DNA of 37,013 bases from positions 1 to 37,013 of the IMG/VR virus record IMGVR_UViG_3300017987_000196; one strand, given 5' to 3'. Position numbers and translations under genes: made by a program. The notes under the pieces were generated by a model. That model searched no databases. It was not told where the DNA came from and saw nothing but the letters and a program-made list of their open reading frames with translations. The first letter of the stretch is position 1. Every line of letters starts with the position of its first letter. Shown here in pieces: positions 18,102 to 25,665 of the stretch. Source of the DNA: a virus.

Positions 18102-18330
18102 ATTCTTTTTTTACTAGCTTTTCTAAAAGTCCGGTCTGCTTTACTGATTCTGTCTTTAACTCAATCAAAGTCTCAAACATTTTGGCGGTGATAGATCCCT
18201 TGAGCCCATTACCATTTCTGTTCTCATTTCTGGTTTTCACATAGCCGAATATCTCTTTAATGATGAGATAGACCGCAAATATCCCAAGGCCCACAGGCCC
18301 TGCCGTTTTGACTATTTCAAATTCAGACAA
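18088..18330 (-). CDS. Small membrane protein, holin-like
   Basis: An 80-residue leftward product with one transmembrane segment (about residues 11-29, GPVGLGIFAVYLIIKEIFG) and a C-terminal amphipathic helix ending KLVKKESNPT. This resembles short one-helix holins in shape only. It overlaps the nuclease gene upstream on the same strand and converges with the previous lysis gene. Which of the two small membrane proteins is the holin cannot be decided. Confidence 0.48.
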   Translation of the reverse strand: MSEFEIVKTAGPVGLGIFAVYLIIKEIFGYVKTRNENRNGNGLKGSITAKMFETLIELKTESVKQTGLLEKLVKKESNPT

Positions 18331-18680
18331 GAGAGATCCCCCTGGTATAGCTGCCTAGTGAACAGAATGGCATCGTCAAGACTTCTGGCCACCCCTACTT
18401 TAGCCCCGTGTTTTTCTTTAAGCTTTAAGAATTCCCTTTGAGCTACTGTCAGTTTACCACCCTTTTTCTTAACCTCTAAATAACCCATATTGCCACGGCA
18501 CAGTATGGTGAAATCTGAGTGGCCTATCTGATCTTGATTAGGGATGAATTTCTGACTAGGCCCATTGCCATAGATCTTTCCGGTAGTAGTTATTCGGTTA
18601 AAAGTAAGAAGATCCCGGTTTTCCTGAATAGTGAAATAATGCTTGATGCTTTTTACCAAAGCTTTTTCTGATGGATTCAT
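18312..18680 (-). CDS. VRR-NUC domain nuclease
   Basis: A 122-residue protein matches the VRR-NUC restriction-endonuclease fold. A DFTILCRGNMGYLEVKKKG segment (about residues 75-93) supplies the Asp and Glu-x-Lys catalytic pair, followed by LTVAQREFL, the usual Q-containing helix. These stand-alone phage nucleases are proposed junction or replication-intermediate nucleases. The ATG at 18680 has no clear ribosome-binding site. It lies just downstream of a leftward terminator-like hairpin, so it may be expressed by read-through or from its own promoter. Confidence 0.82.
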   Translation of the reverse strand: MNPSEKALVKSIKHYFTIQENRDLLTFNRITTTGKIYGNGPSQKFIPNQDQIGHSDFTILCRGNMGYLEVKKKGGKLTVAQREFLKLKEKHGAKVGVARSLDDAILFTRQLYQGDLSCLNLK

Positions 18681-19021: not shown

Positions 19022-19327
19022 ATGGCTAGACATAAGAAAATATTCAGAGATACCTCTGAAAAAATCGAACTATTAAGTAAATGGAAAAATCTACAAGATC
19101 AAGGGCTCAGCGCTTATGCTGCGGCTAAGAGGCTTGGAGTGCCTGCCCCCAGTCTTTTTGGCTGGGATAGGAAAGGTATTCATAAAATAAAGGGAAATAA
19201 TGGCAATAGCCGAATAGTGCCCAGGAGCACTCAAAAGATACCAGCCAGCATTCTCCTCATGTTAGAGGATGATGATGTACCGCCCACTAAAAAGATCGCC
19301 CTTATGGAAACCTACTTTGGCACCTAA
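19022..19327 (+). CDS. Helix-turn-helix DNA-binding protein
   Basis: The 101-residue product has a predicted helix-turn-helix at about residues 27-52 (LSAYAAAKRLGVPAPSLFGW), similar to transposase or terminase-like HTH units. The rest is basic and then acidic. It starts after AAAAAGGAGAAAAACAA, the early-gene type leader of this phage. Its stop overlaps the stop of the convergent E1-like gene. It is probably a regulator; its target is unknown, though the repeats just upstream are candidates. Confidence 0.6.
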   Translation: MARHKKIFRDTSEKIELLSKWKNLQDQGLSAYAAAKRLGVPAPSLFGWDRKGIHKIKGNNGNSRIVPRSTQKIPASILLMLEDDDVPPTKKIALMETYFGT

Positions 19328-20004
19328 GGCATGGTTTGGGGGGCATCCAAGAGGTGCCCCCTCATTTGATTGGCCCCCACATGCCACTCAACTATCCGGT
19401 AATAATTCCTATGGCACAGCCTGTCCTTTATGATCTTACATATGAGCCCGCTTATCAGCAGCACAGTATAAATAGTGCTCCTGGCTGTACAGGGCTCCTG
19501 TATTGAATTCTCATCACTATGCAAGGTCTTCTCATACATCTCCTGGTCTTGGGGCATATCTGGCCTTATGGCAAATACCCTCAAGTATTCTGATGCCATC
19601 CTGGGATCTATGAGTAGTTCAGCCTCAGGGTTATTTTTTTGGTTTTCCCAAATCATTTTCCTCACAGCCATAGAATCTACAGCGCTTATAGTTATACCAG
19701 GCCCTAATCCCTGCCCCGCATAAAAGTCTGGGGCATAAGAAATAGATCCACCCCCCATTCTGAGCACTGTCTCATAAAGCTTGGCTACTTTTTTATGGCC
19801 CACATCTTGGCCCCCATAAAACTGGGCATTGAGATTTTCTATTTCCACATCATCCCCATCCCAAACATCTATATTAATAAATCCCATCTTGGCCAGAGAT
19901 AGAGTAGTAAAGCTACCCACAGCCCCTGCCCCAATAATAGTAATGGGTGTGCAAAGTATCTGCTCAGGGATAATATCAAACTGCCTAGTCAATTCTTCTC
20001 GCAT
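19324..20004 (-). CDS. ThiF/E1-like ubiquitin-activating enzyme
   Basis: A Rossmann protein of 226 residues that would adenylate a ubiquitin-like C-terminus. The nucleotide loop is IIGAGAVGS (residues 23-31), and the acidic motif WDGDDVEIENLN at 48-59 is typical of ThiF/MoeB/E1 enzymes. Asp110 lies in SAVDSM. A likely thioester Cys is C172 in PCTARSTIYT. The ATG at 20004 was chosen for its AAGGAG site about 10 bases upstream and because it overlaps the JAB gene by 20 bases, the same overlap seen at the JAB start; a longer frame begins at 20049. It is the last gene of the Ubl-E2-JAB-E1 operon. No fused E2 or JAB domain. Confidence 0.88.
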   Translation of the reverse strand: MREELTRQFDIIPEQILCTPITIIGAGAVGSFTTLSLAKMGFINIDVWDGDDVEIENLNAQFYGGQDVGHKKVAKLYETVLRMGGGSISYAPDFYAGQGLGPGITISAVDSMAVRKMIWENQKNNPEAELLIDPRMASEYLRVFAIRPDMPQDQEMYEKTLHSDENSIQEPCTARSTIYTVLLISGLICKIIKDRLCHRNYYRIVEWHVGANQMRGHLLDAPQTMP

Positions 20005-20914
20005 CTCCGTGCCACTCCTTATAGTCATAATAATATTCAAGCCACTCATCTATCTCTCTATCATCCATGCCATTAATATCTGCATTTGTGAAACTTAGGG
20101 CATACAGAATATCTAAATCACAAGGATCTAATGTGCGGTGTTTAGTACGCTGGGTATTATTGCGGTTGAGGTTTTCCCATTTGTAATCTTTTTTAGCTGC
20201 CTTTTTTTGTTTTTTAAGGGCATTGAAAAACTGCTTTCTGGTATATACCACAGCCACCCCATCAAAGGAGATTCTGATCTTGTTTTCTTTAATTTCTCCT
20301 GGAGATACATACTGAACACTATCCCCTATAGCATAGTATCCACCCTTCAAATCTGCCTGTGTTTTGATCTCATCATTTATAGGCGCTCTCCAAGATCCCC
20401 CACTATAACCTGCCCAGGTTTTGGTTTTTACATTATCATCATATTCCTTATTCCATTGCTTCTCTAACTCACTATCATAATAAAAGACTGGTCTTGTGGG
20501 GATTTCATCTACAAAAATGGCAGGTAGCCCCGTCACTTTACCCTGGTAATAGCAGGATTTGATTTCTGCTTTAGTATTAAAGACAGAAGCTATAAACCAG
20601 CCATTACTACCAAGATCTTTAACTGTCTCTTTATCTGTAGCACTCCAAAACACAGTGCCTTGTCCGTGGCTATGCCACCAGAAATTGAGGTGCCCAGGAT
20701 CATCTTTTAACTCAAACATTGCTTTAGACAGATCCTCACCATCAATATCAGTGGCACCTCTTGAGTTTTCCTGAGGCAGTAGCATGGCATTGATCACCCT
20801 AAAACCATCCTCAATAATGACTACTTTACCCAAACCACTTACCTCTTGTGGTGATGCTTTCCTCACCCAGTACATTATCTTTTGGTAAACCAGATTATCG
20901 ATTGTTATCTGCAT
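19985..20914 (-). CDS. JAB/JAMM metalloprotease (deubiquitinase-like) with C-terminal extension
   Basis: A 309-residue protein with the full JAMM signature: Glu24 in SPQEVSGLG, His81-x-His83, Ser91 and Asp94 in HSHGQGTVFWSATD. JAMM enzymes cut isopeptide bonds or the tail after a ubiquitin-like C-terminus. The domain fills about the first 130 residues. The remaining 180 (Trp/Tyr-rich, then Lys-rich) are unrecognised and may bind substrate. The start is placed at the ATG after GGAGAGAAGCTA, giving a 20-base overlap with the E2-like gene; a frame from 20935 is possible. The gene sits between E2-like and E1-like genes. Confidence 0.88.
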   Translation of the reverse strand: MQITIDNLVYQKIMYWVRKASPQEVSGLGKVVIIEDGFRVINAMLLPQENSRGATDIDGEDLSKAMFELKDDPGHLNFWWHSHGQGTVFWSATDKETVKDLGSNGWFIASVFNTKAEIKSCYYQGKVTGLPAIFVDEIPTRPVFYYDSELEKQWNKEYDDNVKTKTWAGYSGGSWRAPINDEIKTQADLKGGYYAIGDSVQYVSPGEIKENKIRISFDGVAVVYTRKQFFNALKKQKKAAKKDYKWENLNRNNTQRTKHRTLDPCDLDILYALSFTNADINGMDDREIDEWLEYYYDYKEWHGDARRID

Positions 20915-21932
20915 TAGCTTCTCTCCGGACAACATTGTTTATAAGAGTATCGACTGCTATCCTGTCAATTTCTCTGCCTACCTCTGAAATATTAGAGCCA
21001 GCATTTTTTTTTATTCCATTTTTTTGAGAGAGCATCCTCTCGTATTTCTCCCTAAACTTATATAGCTGTATATAAGGGCCTGCAGGTTTATAGACGGTAA
21101 GCATGATCTGAGTTAACTTTAATACGCCATAAATATCAAACTTGGCATAACAATCTAGAAGGGCTTCACGTTGATTACCATAACAGAGATACCCATCTCT
21201 AGAGCAGAATGGATGAATTCCGCCATCTACTAAAATATTATCTTTTCCCTTTTTTATTTGTGTGTGCATATCTTGAAACCAAAGCAGCACTCTATATTGG
21301 CCCATTGGCACAGAATAGTTTATAGCTTTAGCTGGATCTTTTTCACTAAGTACTATATGAGGGGTATTTAGCTCTAGGTGATCTTCGTATAGCCTGTGTA
21401 TAGAGTAAAACCCCTCATCTATTATTTTAAATATCTGCTCACCCAAACTTTGCCCGTTAACTTTACTCGACAACTCCTGGAAGCTAAGCATTAGATTGCA
21501 GTAAAGCGAGTTAAGGTCCCTTTGATGCCTGTCAATTCTACCCCTAATATCTCTAATATAGCTGTTTGATTGCCACGTCTCACTGGCATCTAAGTCTAGC
21601 TTTTTAAATTTGGTGTGGTAATAAGTAAACACCCTATCATCTAAGCTTTTTTTAAGGCTCAGATCTTTAAATTTCCCAGCTTCTTTCTCATGCATAAAAA
21701 GCCTATTAAATTTTTTGGGCGGGAAAGGAATAAATTTCGAGCTAAAGTAATTCAGATAAAGGAACGCCATAGAGTCCAGCATATGCCCGCTGACTACGGT
21801 AACCATGTGATTGAGATTATCTGTAGCTTCTGAGACCTTATCCTCATCTAAATTTCTCTGTATCAAAAAATAAAGATCATCTATTGAGAGCCTATTCCCA
21901 TATTGGTAAATAATATCGCTTTTTAGAGACAT
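20895..21932 (-). CDS. E2-like ubiquitin-conjugating enzyme with helical N-terminal domain
   Basis: A 345-residue protein. Residues about 205-295 match the E2 core. GGIHPFCSRDGYLCYG at 237-252 mirrors the E2 signature HPN...NG.ICL, giving Cys250 as the likely catalytic residue with His240-Pro241 upstream. It is followed by helices resembling the post-active-site E2 helix (YGVLKLTQIMLTVY). The first 200 residues form an unrecognised helical domain. The ATG at 21932 follows GGGGGATTCTT; an upstream ATG at 21983 lies inside a hairpin and is less likely. E2 identity is from motif reading and context; structure prediction would settle it. Confidence 0.75.
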   Translation of the reverse strand: MSLKSDIIYQYGNRLSIDDLYFLIQRNLDEDKVSEATDNLNHMVTVVSGHMLDSMAFLYLNYFSSKFIPFPPKKFNRLFMHEKEAGKFKDLSLKKSLDDRVFTYYHTKFKKLDLDASETWQSNSYIRDIRGRIDRHQRDLNSLYCNLMLSFQELSSKVNGQSLGEQIFKIIDEGFYSIHRLYEDHLELNTPHIVLSEKDPAKAINYSVPMGQYRVLLWFQDMHTQIKKGKDNILVDGGIHPFCSRDGYLCYGNQREALLDCYAKFDIYGVLKLTQIMLTVYKPAGPYIQLYKFREKYERMLSQKNGIKKNAGSNISEVGREIDRIAVDTLINNVVRREANADNNR

Positions 21933-21952
21933 AAGAATCCCCCAGATAATTA

Positions 21953-21980
21953 CCCGCCCCCCATAAAGCAGAGGGGCGGG
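21953..21980 (-). terminator. GC-rich hairpin between the Ubl and E2-like genes (attenuator candidate)
   Basis: CCCGCCCC and GGGGCGGG form an 8-bp stem with a 12-base loop in the 57-base gap between the Ubl stop and the E2 start. Only a few T residues follow, so termination would be partial. It could raise the amount of ubiquitin-like protein relative to the enzymes. Confidence 0.5.
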
Positions 21981-21989
21981 CATAATGGA

Positions 21990-22190
21990 TTAGGCTCCCT
22001 TAGCATTAGGGGCAAAGGATACGTAGCAGAAATCCTCTAATTCCTCATCCCCATCCGCAGGCACACCATTGATAGAGGCAGAGTAATCATCTCCTGCTTT
22101 GATCTTTTCCCTAGCATCCTCTACCGTATTGAGCCCGCTAAATACCTGAGGATTGCCCCCAGCTACTTGAACAGTTACCTTTTTAGCCAT
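21990..22190 (-). CDS. Ubiquitin-like (beta-grasp) protein
   Basis: A 66-residue product heads the operon behind an AAAGGAGAAAGCAA leader. The predicted order is strand (KKVTVQVAGG), strand (PQVFSG), helix (VEDAREKIKA), strand (YSASINGVPAD), then strand (FCYVSFAP), as in small beta-grasp proteins such as PRTRC-C or MoaD-like folds. The end is AKGA, so a Gly is next to last; removal of the Ala would leave a conjugatable glycine. Neighbouring E1-, E2- and JAB-like genes make this role much more likely than sequence alone does. Confidence 0.8.
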   Translation of the reverse strand: MAKKVTVQVAGGNPQVFSGLNTVEDAREKIKAGDDYSASINGVPADGDEELEDFCYVSFAPNAKGA

Positions 22191-22314: not shown

Positions 22315-22518
22315 ATGAATACAATACTTAAAAGTGTCAGAATCACTAAGCAGCAGGATGAGGCTATCAAAAAAACGGGGGTAGAATTCTCATTTTTAGT
22401 GAGATATGCGCTTGATAGTCTTTTGGCTAAAAAATCTTTAATAAAAAGACTGGCTGTACAGAAAGGGGGCAAGAGTAATGAGCCAAAAGATATTCGCCAT
22501 AGGAGATGTGCACGGTAG
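22315..22518 (+). CDS. Ribbon-helix-helix (Arc/CopG-like) regulator
   Basis: The 67-residue protein from the ATG at 22315 starts with a strand (KSVRIT) followed by two helices (KQQDEAIKKTG and FSFLVRYALDSLLAKK), the RHH fold. The tail is basic. RHH dimers bind short repeats like those 10-85 bases upstream, so it probably represses itself and the divergent Ubl operon. The ribosome-binding site is AAGG with a short spacer. It overlaps the next gene by 41 bases. Confidence 0.7.
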   Translation: MNTILKSVRITKQQDEAIKKTGVEFSFLVRYALDSLLAKKSLIKRLAVQKGGKSNEPKDIRHRRCAR

Positions 22519-23239
22519 GAAAGATTTATTAGATGACCTGTACTTTACTATTAACCAAAACTCAGACGACAAGTTTGTTTTCTTGGGGGATCTTATAGAC
22601 AGAGGGCCACAGTCTTGTGAAGTAATAGATACTGTAATGGGCATGATGCACAATTACTCTAATAGTGTTTTCTGTGTCTTGGGTAATCATGAAAGGCTTT
22701 GTCTTAATGCCTGCTTGAGAGCCAGCATAGAGGATGAGATCCTCTGGCAAATAAATGGCGGAGATGCCACTAAAGCGAGCTATCCTACTGCCAAGGTCTT
22801 TCAAGAGCATTTAGAATGGATGCTGCGCTTACCTCTTTACCATAAAGAGCAGGGCTTCTTTTTTTCTCATGCCCCCGTGCCAAGGGAAAGCTTTAGAGAT
22901 CCACATATGAAGGGGAAAGAGTACTCAGAGCAAGAGCTAACTTGGACATATAACCGGGATGAGTTTGGTGTGGCTAAAGATTTTAAAGATGGCACAGTGG
23001 GTGTGTGTGGCCACATTCATATGCTGCACAGGGGAGTAATGGCCCCAAGGTTTTATCCGCATTATATTTATGCTGATTCTGGCTGTGGCTGTAGCTCTAA
23101 TGCACCATTAGTGGCGGTTGAGGTAACTACTAGAGAGACATACTGGGCATGGCCAGAGGGAGTTGATGAAGAGACTAGAAATAGGATTGAAAAACAAACT
23201 TATATTGTGGCCAAAAGAAGCTTAGGAGAAAGTGCATGA
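22478..23239 (+). CDS. PPP-family serine/threonine protein phosphatase
   Basis: A 253-residue protein like lambda phosphatase. It has the three PPP metal motifs GDVHG (9-13), GDLIDRG (37-43) and GNHE (69-72), and later metal His residues in FSHAPV and VCGHIHM. It would hydrolyse phosphoserine/threonine on proteins using two metals. Its role in the phage is not clear. A 30-residue extension (EGVDEETRNRIEKQTY...) follows the core. The start lies inside the RHH gene after a GGGGGCAAGAGTA leader. Confidence 0.88.
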   Translation: MSQKIFAIGDVHGRKDLLDDLYFTINQNSDDKFVFLGDLIDRGPQSCEVIDTVMGMMHNYSNSVFCVLGNHERLCLNACLRASIEDEILWQINGGDATKASYPTAKVFQEHLEWMLRLPLYHKEQGFFFSHAPVPRESFRDPHMKGKEYSEQELTWTYNRDEFGVAKDFKDGTVGVCGHIHMLHRGVMAPRFYPHYIYADSGCGCSSNAPLVAVEVTTRETYWAWPEGVDEETRNRIEKQTYIVAKRSLGESA

Positions 23240-23897: not shown

Positions 23898-23985
23898 ACT
23901 CTGTAATAAATGCGGACAGTGGGGCTATGTCGTATTTAAAAAAGGAAAAGCGATCTGTATTAAATGTCTGAAATTTATTTCATAA
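23881..23985 (+). CDS. 34-residue zinc-ribbon protein
   Basis: Starts at an ATG after GAGGAAATATC. Two CxxC knuckles (CNKC and CIKC) are spaced 16 residues apart, expected to bind one zinc ion. It overlaps the phosphoesterase gene by 22 bases. Probably a small nucleic-acid- or protein-binding factor; specific role unknown. Confidence 0.6.
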   Translation: MRVQILLCNKCGQWGYVVFKKGKAICIKCLKFIS

Positions 23986-24452
23986 GCGATCTGCACTTTG
24001 GCCACCTGAACTATAAAAGATTTGTGCCCTGGATAAAGGACATGGATCACGATGAGTACATAGAGCTAATGGTGGTAAGGTGGAATTCCGTAGTCAAAAA
24101 AAATGATGTGGTATGGGTGCTTGGAGATGTGGCCTTTAATGCTAAGGGGCTTATTACTTTTGATAGGCTCCTGGGCATTAAGCACCTGGTAAGAGGTAAT
24201 CACGATAACTTAAGCACGCTCAGCTATCTGAAGTTTTTTAACAGTATCCAGGGTATTGTGAAAAAGCACAGCTACTGGCTTTCTCACTGCCCTATACATC
24301 CAGAGGAATTAAGAGGCAAGAAAAATATACACGGCCATGTACATCAGAATGAGTTAAAAGACAGAGATTATATTTATGTGGGGGCTGATAAGCTTGAGGG
24401 ATATCCCATTAGCTTGAATCAGATTAGAAACCAGGAGAAAACAAATGAATAA
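23964..24452 (+). CDS. Calcineurin-like metallophosphoesterase
   Basis: A 162-residue enzyme with the five metallophosphoesterase motifs: D-x-H at residues 9-11, GDV at 54-56, GNHD at 78-81, His108 in SHCP, and GHVH at 124-127. The short length fits the phage/bacterial family related to YfcE-type phosphodiesterases. The substrate is unknown. It is the second of three phosphoesterases within 3.2 kb. The downstream gene starts eight bases before its stop. Confidence 0.85.
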   Translation: MSEIYFISDLHFGHLNYKRFVPWIKDMDHDEYIELMVVRWNSVVKKNDVVWVLGDVAFNAKGLITFDRLLGIKHLVRGNHDNLSTLSYLKFFNSIQGIVKKHSYWLSHCPIHPEELRGKKNIHGHVHQNELKDRDYIYVGADKLEGYPISLNQIRNQEKTNE

Positions 24453-24699: not shown

Positions 24700-24953
24700 A
24701 TCTCTTTTATCTTAACCAGCTTTTTAATCTTGAGTATGGCGGGCTTAAAGACACAATAGCTTTCACTATTATCATCATCTGGATTGCCATTAGTACACCA
24801 GGTAAGTATGTGCAGATAGTGCTCGGCCTCAGCCCATAGAATGCCCCATATCCTGCACTTCATAGGTAAAAGATTAGAGCCCCCACATTGGCTATGATCA
24901 TAAAAGTCTACCTCTACCAGCCACTTATCTTTTTTGACTGTATAGCTCGCCAT
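24696..24953 (-). CDS. 85-residue hypothetical protein
   Basis: A leftward gene; the ATG at 24953 was preferred to an upstream TTG. It contains several Cys residues (SQCGGS, MKCRIW, TWCTNG, SYCVF) in a strand-rich background starting MASYTVKKDKWLVEVDFYDH. This looks like a small metal-binding or disulfide fold. It overlaps the phosphoesterase gene upstream by 29 bases. Function unknown. Confidence 0.5.
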   Translation of the reverse strand: MASYTVKKDKWLVEVDFYDHSQCGGSNLLPMKCRIWGILWAEAEHYLHILTWCTNGNPDDDNSESYCVFKPAILKIKKLVKIKEI

Positions 24954-25665
24954 TAAAGACTGCCTTTCCTTTATCAATGTTTACTATCTGTATTGTGTAA
25001 CCCCCCCTGTAAAACCATCCAATGGCAAAGGCATGGCACCAATCAGGCACATCCTCTACATAGGGAGCGGCTTTTTTAAAATCTCCAAGCCAGCCAATGT
25101 TATAGGCTTTGAGCACTTTCCCATCCCATGTGCGGGTAGTGTAGATCTGTACTCTATGAGTATGCCCAAACAGCACATCTGCGTGATATTTCTGGATCAT
25201 ATTAAAGCAGACGTGTTTAGAGCAGAGCGTGCCATGAGTGACTATGAGATCACGGATCTTGTAATAGCCCCCCTGGCCATATGGTATATAGCGCCATTTA
25301 GGATCAATGCCGAGTATGTCACGGGGCTTTAGGTAATTGATAAAGGCCGGGCATTTTTCTTCTATATACTTTAAGATTCTCTGTTCATGGTTACCCTCTA
25401 GGAAAGTGACTTTCCGACATTTTGAGGCTGCTACTATAGTATGGAGTAAATCGGTACAAGGACGCACCTCTTGATCAAAAAGGGCGTAGGCTTTTTGTGG
25501 GTTTTTCCGATATCGAGATAAGGAGTACACATCAAAAAAGTCACCCAAAAATACTATTTCCTTGGCATGTACCTGGGGAATAATATTCAGCAGGCATTTG
25601 ATACTAGGCCAGTGTGGCCATTGGGCATGCACATCAGGCACAAATATTACAGGATAAGTATTCAT
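24925..25665 (-). CDS. Calcineurin-like metallophosphoesterase (third)
   Basis: A 246-residue leftward enzyme. Motifs: PDVH with Asp11/His13, GDFFD at 41-45, GNHE at 91-94, VTHG near 160, and FGHTH in the last third. The set is complete, so it should be active. It resembles phage phosphoesterases more than the PPP protein upstream. The substrate is unknown. No good ribosome-binding site lies before the ATG, so translation may be weak. Confidence 0.85.
   Translation of the reverse strand: MNTYPVIFVPDVHAQWPHWPSIKCLLNIIPQVHAKEIVFLGDFFDVYSLSRYRKNPQKAYALFDQEVRPCTDLLHTIVAASKCRKVTFLEGNHEQRILKYIEEKCPAFINYLKPRDILGIDPKWRYIPYGQGGYYKIRDLIVTHGTLCSKHVCFNMIQKYHADVLFGHTHRVQIYTTRTWDGKVLKAYNIGWLGDFKKAAPYVEDVPDWCHAFAIGWFYRGGYTIQIVNIDKGKAVFNGELYSQKR

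Follow-up and report, generated by a model that had tools for sequence, protein, structure and literature searches.

A phage-encoded four-gene cassette predicted to carry out reversible ubiquitin-like protein conjugation

In bacteria, ubiquitin-like tagging has been described both in cofactor chemistry and in defence against phages. Prokaryotic operons that combine a ubiquitin-like modifier (Ubl), an activating enzyme (E1), a conjugating enzyme (E2) and a JAMM protease have been known since 2006 (PMC1779556). In the Bil system, BilA to BilD are Ubl, E2, deubiquitinase (DUB) and E1, respectively; BilA has two Ubl domains, BilB has a CEHH motif with the catalytic His 13 residues after the Cys, and BilD consists of an inactive and an active adenylation domain with an inserted Cys domain (PMC11354881). 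In the type II cyclic oligonucleotide-based antiphage signaling system (CBASS), Cap2 combines E1 and E2 in a fusion that acts on a CD-NTase (PMC12355090). In Caldiarchaeum, pro-ubiquitin has to be trimmed by JAMM/Rpn11 prior to E1 activation (PMC5654768), and archaeal SAMP conjugation works without an E2 (PMC11354881). For TAPI and TAPK, which are linked to lambda-type tail assembly, no E1 or E2 is described (PMC1779556). Here we analyze four leftward genes in a 37,013-base stretch of viral DNA, IMG/VR record IMGVR_UViG_3300017987_000196 (hereafter the window), which a preliminary description had proposed to encode a complete Ubl-E2-JAMM-E1 set. This proposal is backed by sequence profiles, by predicted structures and by synteny that is conserved in many phages. 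We estimate a probability of about 75% that the genes form a complete, reversible Ubl conjugation cassette that works and is used by the phage; that the cassette carries out conjugation is highly probable.

The structure of the 66-residue protein was predicted with AlphaFold2 (AF2). The model (predicted local distance difference test, pLDDT, 87.7) is a single domain of the order beta-beta-alpha-beta-beta-beta, i.e. the proposed beta-grasp fold, and Foldseek matched it with a probability of 1.00 to MTH1743, MoaD, ubiquitin and ISG15. When the window Ubl was searched alone no family match was obtained; a 14-member profile found SAMP2 (E 1.9e-5) over nearly its full length, including the C-terminal GG. 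Across the loci (those from other genomes carry L numbers) the tails mostly read K-G/A-G followed by 0, 1, 2, 12 or about 20 residues. The window Ubl ends in K-G-A rather than GG, and the endings in relatives are KGGR, KGGC, KGGL, KGGKI, KGGAN, KAGA (L014), KAG (L018 and L042), or 12–20 residues past the GG. Since residues follow the G or GG, trimming by the neighbouring JAMM protease is predicted, and the tail pattern is as expected of a precursor cut by such an enzyme.

The 345-residue protein contains the proposed E2 signature in the stretch HPFCSRDGYLC (HP at 240–241, Cys at C250), with the His 10 residues before the Cys. C250 is invariant in a 14-member alignment, and the catalytic residues are retained in relatives with only 13–23% identity to the window protein. 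The AF2 model consists of an N-terminal helical or coiled region and a UBC core at about residues 165–290 (pLDDT about 90), built from a helix, a beta-meander, the HPx...C loop and two helices. The window E2 matched no family in Pfam, NCBIfam, PHROG or PADLOC. An hhalign comparison of a 25-member E2 core profile with three human reference sequences, UBE2D2, UBE2N and UBE2I, gave a probability of 86.8% and E 4.3e-6, against E 0.17–0.92 for unrelated control profiles. The alignment was in register, with HPH...G-x-x-C over HPN...G-x-I-C. In addition, a 52-residue stretch of one relative's E2 had 47 matches in the PDB, all of them E2s or E2-containing fusions and individually weak (best E 0.18). 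Model and profile thus indicate that the window protein is a predicted E2 with a UBC core and the HPx...C site in register. CxxC...CxxC modules resembling zinc-binding sites, possibly built-in E3-like or DNA-binding modules, lie C-terminal of the E2 core in L016, L020, L023, L024, L025, L026, L027 and L052; the window E2 has none. In another locus (L045:4855-8454), the JAMM-E1 pair is flanked by two E2 paralogues.

The window JAMM protein passed the cut-off of Pfam Prok-JAB (6.2e-6) and has the complete motif, an upstream Glu plus HSHx7SxxD. Its profile matched an archaeal Rpn11 homologue, Caldiarchaeum Rpn11 (6fjv, 6fju; E 1.9e-5). The window E1 is one ThiF-type domain (Pfam ThiF, 7.1e-15) with the GAGAVGS loop, so that all motifs claimed beforehand are present in the translations. 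The E1 profile matched SAE2, UBA3, MoeB, UBA5, Cap2 and BubCD. Identity to the window E1 is 36–47% across relatives, and the catalytic C172 as well as R7, D49, D51, K72, D110 and R115 are invariant in 14 of them. The N-terminal part of the 668-residue E1 of L046 was considered as an E2-E1 fusion and dropped, as no HPx-C site was found. The membership of Ubl and E1 in the ThiS/MoaD and ThiF superfamilies could also point to a sulfur carrier, in which a ThiS/MoaD-like Ubl would supply sulfur for modifying a cofactor, tRNA or DNA, with the E1 as its ThiF/MoeB-like activator. The Ubl of a Myxococcales relative passes Pfam ThiS, and relatives are annotated as thiamine biosynthesis protein. However, nearly all loci also encode a JAMM protease and an E2-like protein, genes for a rhodanese, a cysteine desulfurase or a cofactor were not recognised in the vicinity, and the window E1 is well under the cut-off of the curated NCBIfam ThiF/MoeB models (53.7 vs 159 bits). 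We therefore regard a sulfur carrier as quite improbable.

To assess how often the set recurs, each part was called with its own profile on the 22 further non-redundant viral contigs that were found with E1 profiles. The same four genes in the order Ubl-E2-JAMM-E1 and on the same strand are present in 18 of these. Two of the 18, L049 and L050, have weak Ubl scores (E 0.002 and 0.021), and the call there also takes into account the gene position and the KGG/RGG tail. Among the remaining four, an E2 could not be recognised in L046 nor a Ubl in L052, L047 breaks off at the contig end, and the order in L053 is Ubl-E1-JAMM-E2. When viral contigs were scanned with a single protein, neither the window E2 nor the window E1 gave a match, and tblastn of the window JAMM and E2 against GenBank phages gave none either. 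The window JAMM alone found three loci in the viral-contig scan, and alignments from these led to the rest.

Relatives are also found in cultured phages and in bacteria. Clear homologues of E1 (E 1e-30 to 1e-37) and JAMM (E 1e-6 to 1e-11) are encoded by cultured crAss-like phages (crAss001 gp76-79 region, DAC15) and by Flavobacterium phage Fpv1. In crAss001 (gp79-gp76, L009:3334-7744) a beta-grasp-like protein and a protein bearing H...C precede JAMM and E1 in the same order. The hhalign probability was 8.4% (P 0.004) for gp78 compared with E2 and 5.8% (P 0.0065) for gp79 compared with Ubl, against 0.1–0.2% in controls, which is no more than suggestive. In these phages, Fpv1 included, the two genes ahead of the E1-JAMM pair are probable Ubl and E2 partners by place and appearance. 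As the similarity is non-significant, crAss phages were not counted as proven carriers of four genes. The JAMM gene of Fpv1 (L006:4665-6957) seems to be interrupted: between its two parts, an annotated endonuclease gene lies on the opposite strand, as if a homing element had inserted there. Bacterial metagenome-assembled genomes (MAGs; Myxococcales, a planctomycete and a deltaproteobacterium) have 1–4 strongly related E1 copies per genome. In the MAG copies examined, E2 and JAMM adjoin the E1, and in most the Ubl does too, where the contig permits. One bacterial copy adjoins a conjugation-type coupling protein, a replication-relaxation protein and a DnaG-like primase, suggesting mobile elements.

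From the four folds, the active-site residues, the tail pattern and the conserved order, all obtained by sequence and structure prediction, we infer the following cycle. The JAMM protease would trim the Ubl precursor from K-G-A to K-G, or from KGG-X to KGG in relatives. The E1, probably a ThiF/MoeB-like homodimer, would adenylate the terminal Gly and load it on C172, from which the Ubl would be passed on to the E2 (C250). With no obvious E3, the E2 would join the Ubl to an amino group on the target, and the JAMM protease could also take it off again. In the subgroup of L049 and L050, some tagged proteins would possibly be handed to a Clp unfoldase.

Four independent domain identifications, together with catalytic residues that are kept despite low overall identity, argue for a conjugation cassette, and several observations weigh against it. 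The window Ubl has a single terminal Gly instead of two. The Foldseek search with the whole E2 model was weak (Ube2W, probability 0.87, E 0.21; rank 2, 7zw0_sj), which its long helical N-terminus probably explains, and the E2 call thus rests on the core profile comparison. The Asn of the classical HPN is missing (HPF in the window, HPH in most relatives), and therefore the transfer chemistry may differ from that of lysine-directed E2s. UBE2W, which also has HPH, modifies N-termini, which is a lead only. Where MoeB has Arg73, within the motif N-L-Q-R-Q, the phage E1 family has Ala, Cys, Ser or Asn (MoeB residues as assigned in PMC12355090). Neither an E3 nor a candidate substrate was identified. 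Finally, replication genes could not be recognised near several of the loci, and the association with such genes described below is uncorrected for background frequency. The HPF in place of HPH or HPN and the tail of one Gly plus Ala could also be read as signs that the domains are a decayed or accidental combination that does not conjugate. This is very unlikely, as the reading frames are intact and overlapping with ribosome-binding-like sites, the catalytic residues are invariant over deep divergence and the gene order is conserved.

All four open reading frames (ORFs) were located at the proposed positions (Table 1). Starts were chosen by the N-termini of homologues and by upstream GGAG-like sequences; the longest-ORF alternatives are 241 aa for E1, 316 aa for JAMM and 362 aa for E2. 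With the chosen starts the overlap is exactly 20 bases at both the E2/JAMM and the JAMM/E1 junction, in agreement with the preliminary description. Its claim that all flanking genes are phage genes also fits the proteins recognised around the cassette, which belong to a tailed phage, namely terminase, capsid, tape measure, tail fibre, RecT, a NinI-like phosphatase and a ParB-methyltransferase.

Table 1. Positions of the cassette genes and associated features in the window
Feature	Position	Strand	Basis
Ubl, 66-aa beta-grasp modifier, C-terminus ...FAPNAKGA	21990..22190	-	AF2, Foldseek, profile
E2-like conjugating enzyme, 345 aa	20895..21932	-	AF2, hhalign
JAMM/JAB metalloprotease, 309 aa (ORF 20935 if first ATG)	19985..20914	-	Pfam Prok-JAB, motif, Rpn11 profile match
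E1-like (ThiF fold) activating enzyme, 226 aa (ORF 20049 if first ATG)	19324..20004	-	Pfam ThiF, profiles
12-bp G+C-rich hairpin in the Ubl-E2 gap	21951..21982	-	RNA fold z
Holliday-junction-resolvase/endonuclease-like neighbour (association uncertain)	18312..18680	-	PHROG 93 (4e-11) and 5702 (5e-9)

The window cassette belongs to the general kind of prokaryotic Ubl conjugation systems, with Ubl, E1, E2 and JAMM together and active sites intact. By gene order, the described systems closest to it are PRTRC and Bil. PRTRC is similar in being borne by mobile elements, and a plasmid example has the same order of the four genes, C(Ubl)-x-x-B(E2)-A(JAB)-ThiF(E1). By our own reading of the gene content, PRTRC corresponds to operon type 6d of Iyer 2006. 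However, the window proteins missed the cut-offs of TIGR03735-03738: PRTRC_A scored 13.1 of 101.8 bits and the PRTRC ThiF 22.6 of 144.75, and PRTRC_B and PRTRC_C gave no match. In the E1 tree the PRTRC E1s are on their own side of a 100/99 branch, and the group of phage, crAss and MAG E1s stands apart at 90/98. No PRTRC E was recognised beside the phage set, and no PRTRC_C was above cut-off in 141 genomes from the phylum of one bacterial relative. The PRTRC comparison profiles were built from 2–5 sequences, and the one for PRTRC_A contained a wrong Shewanella membrane protein, which voids the JAMM comparison made with it.

Similarities to the archaeal systems are also partial. The Caldiarchaeum subterraneum operon shares a pro-Ubl trimmed by a JAMM protease (Rpn11) and separate E1 and E2, but the window set is viral, has a minimal ThiF-type E1, and no small RING E3 was recognised. 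In the archaeal SAMP2/UbaA/JAMM1 system, SAMP2 is the closest solved relative of the window Ubl and a ThiF-type E1 and a JAMM protease are likewise present, whereas the window cassette includes an E2. The lambda-type TAPI and TAPK are a phage-borne Ubl and JAB as well.

The preliminary description had pointed to the bacterial antiphage loci Bil and Cap2/Cap3. This likeness held in part, as the systems are of the same kind, but the window cassette is not a member of either, nor of Bub or PRTRC. A Bil operon combines the same four activities, and type II CBASS Cap2/Cap3 and Bub share the E1, E2 and JAMM enzymes. In contrast to BilA, the window Ubl has one beta-grasp domain; in contrast to BilB, the E2 has the His before the Cys and Tyr or another residue, not His, at the downstream positions; and in contrast to BilD, the E1 is a single domain. 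Unlike in Cap2, E1 and E2 are separate ORFs, and no CD-NTase was found among the flanking proteins scanned. BubCD appears, judged by PDB name and length, to be a fused DUB-E1, whereas the four window genes are all separate. Since Bil was reported to tag phage tails, according to a citation in PMC12135933, the shared gene set (PMC11354881) raises an alternative in which the cassette excludes superinfecting competitors by Bil-like tagging of rival virion proteins, or counters a host Ubl system. Its orientation opposite to the rightward neighbours in the window resembles that of an accessory insertion. On the other hand, no PADLOC model matched the window Ubl, E2 or JAMM, the E1 matched E1-E2 models weakly and in the nucleotide-binding part, and the defining Bil features are lacking. 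Moreover, many copies, including those of crAss-like phages grown in culture, are found inside replication/recombination modules rather than accessory regions. We consider such a device unlikely.

The neighbours of the phage copies comprise RecT, Erf, Sak4, a Cas4-like or other exonuclease, primase and uracil-DNA glycosylase, and those of the bacterial copies Rad52, a PD-(D/E)XK nuclease and primase. In the window, the resolvase-like nuclease is encoded past the E1, on its strand. By gene content, these recurring neighbours point to modules for DNA replication and recombination, with a Clp unfoldase in one subgroup, rather than to the virion tagging or counter-defence suggested in the preliminary description. 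Given its recurrence in many phages, often beside such genes, the cassette probably belongs to the regular equipment of phages rather than being a stray locus for bacterial defence. The likeliest role, on gene neighbourhood, is the modification of phage or host replication/recombination proteins early in infection, though this falls short of probable. In L049 (7941-10460) and L050 (8239-10770), a gene for a ClpC/ClpE-like AAA+ unfoldase with an N-terminal zinc motif and a ClpP-loop-like IGF lies directly downstream of the cassette. This arrangement would suit a role of the Ubl in marking proteins for a Clp-type unfoldase, with cleavage by host ClpP. As the gene is confined to these two related large phages and no Clp gene was recognised beside the window cassette, degradation is a rather unlikely purpose.

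The conjugation cassette may also be regulated at the RNA level. The hairpin in the window gap has a z of -2.8 in a 66-nt stretch and of -3.4 in the 57-nt gap. A Ubl-E2 gap with room for a hairpin is present in 17 loci, and z is -2 or lower in 10 of them. Strong hairpins recur in the independent phages L015, L017, L026, L042, L050 and L051, and several resemble intrinsic terminators (L017, L018 and L051). The window hairpin is possibly an attenuator or processing element. As the enzyme genes overlap and the hairpin gap parts Ubl from E2, we infer that the modifier could be made in excess of the enzymes.

In the open-access literature that we searched, a scope beyond which closed papers may mention it, the phage-borne four-gene set is not described, and the crAss-phage papers searched contain no mention of ubiquitin or ThiF. 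To judge by the open literature, both the phage setting of the cassette and its distinct E1 lineage thus appear to be unreported. If phages carry and keep a complete E1-E2-JAMM-Ubl set, the picture would be reversed, and bacterial viruses would own a post-translational tagging system. A broader and rather speculative view is that of a largely viral Ubl-conjugation lineage, spanning diverse phages and crAss-like relatives, that would be core to the replication/recombination programme and not a captured immune system, tagging replisome or recombination proteins and, in certain phages, directing them to a Clp unfoldase. The relatives in cultured crAss-like and Flavobacterium phages, so far labelled only as thiamine biosynthesis or hypothetical proteins, make the function testable in laboratory phage-host pairs.

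Two further observations concern the surroundings of the cassette. A rightward 101-aa ORF without family match (19022-19327) is convergent with the end of the E1 gene and overlaps it by 4 bases. Three different metallophosphoesterase genes are located inside 3.2 kb (22478-23239, 23964-24452 and 24925-25665).

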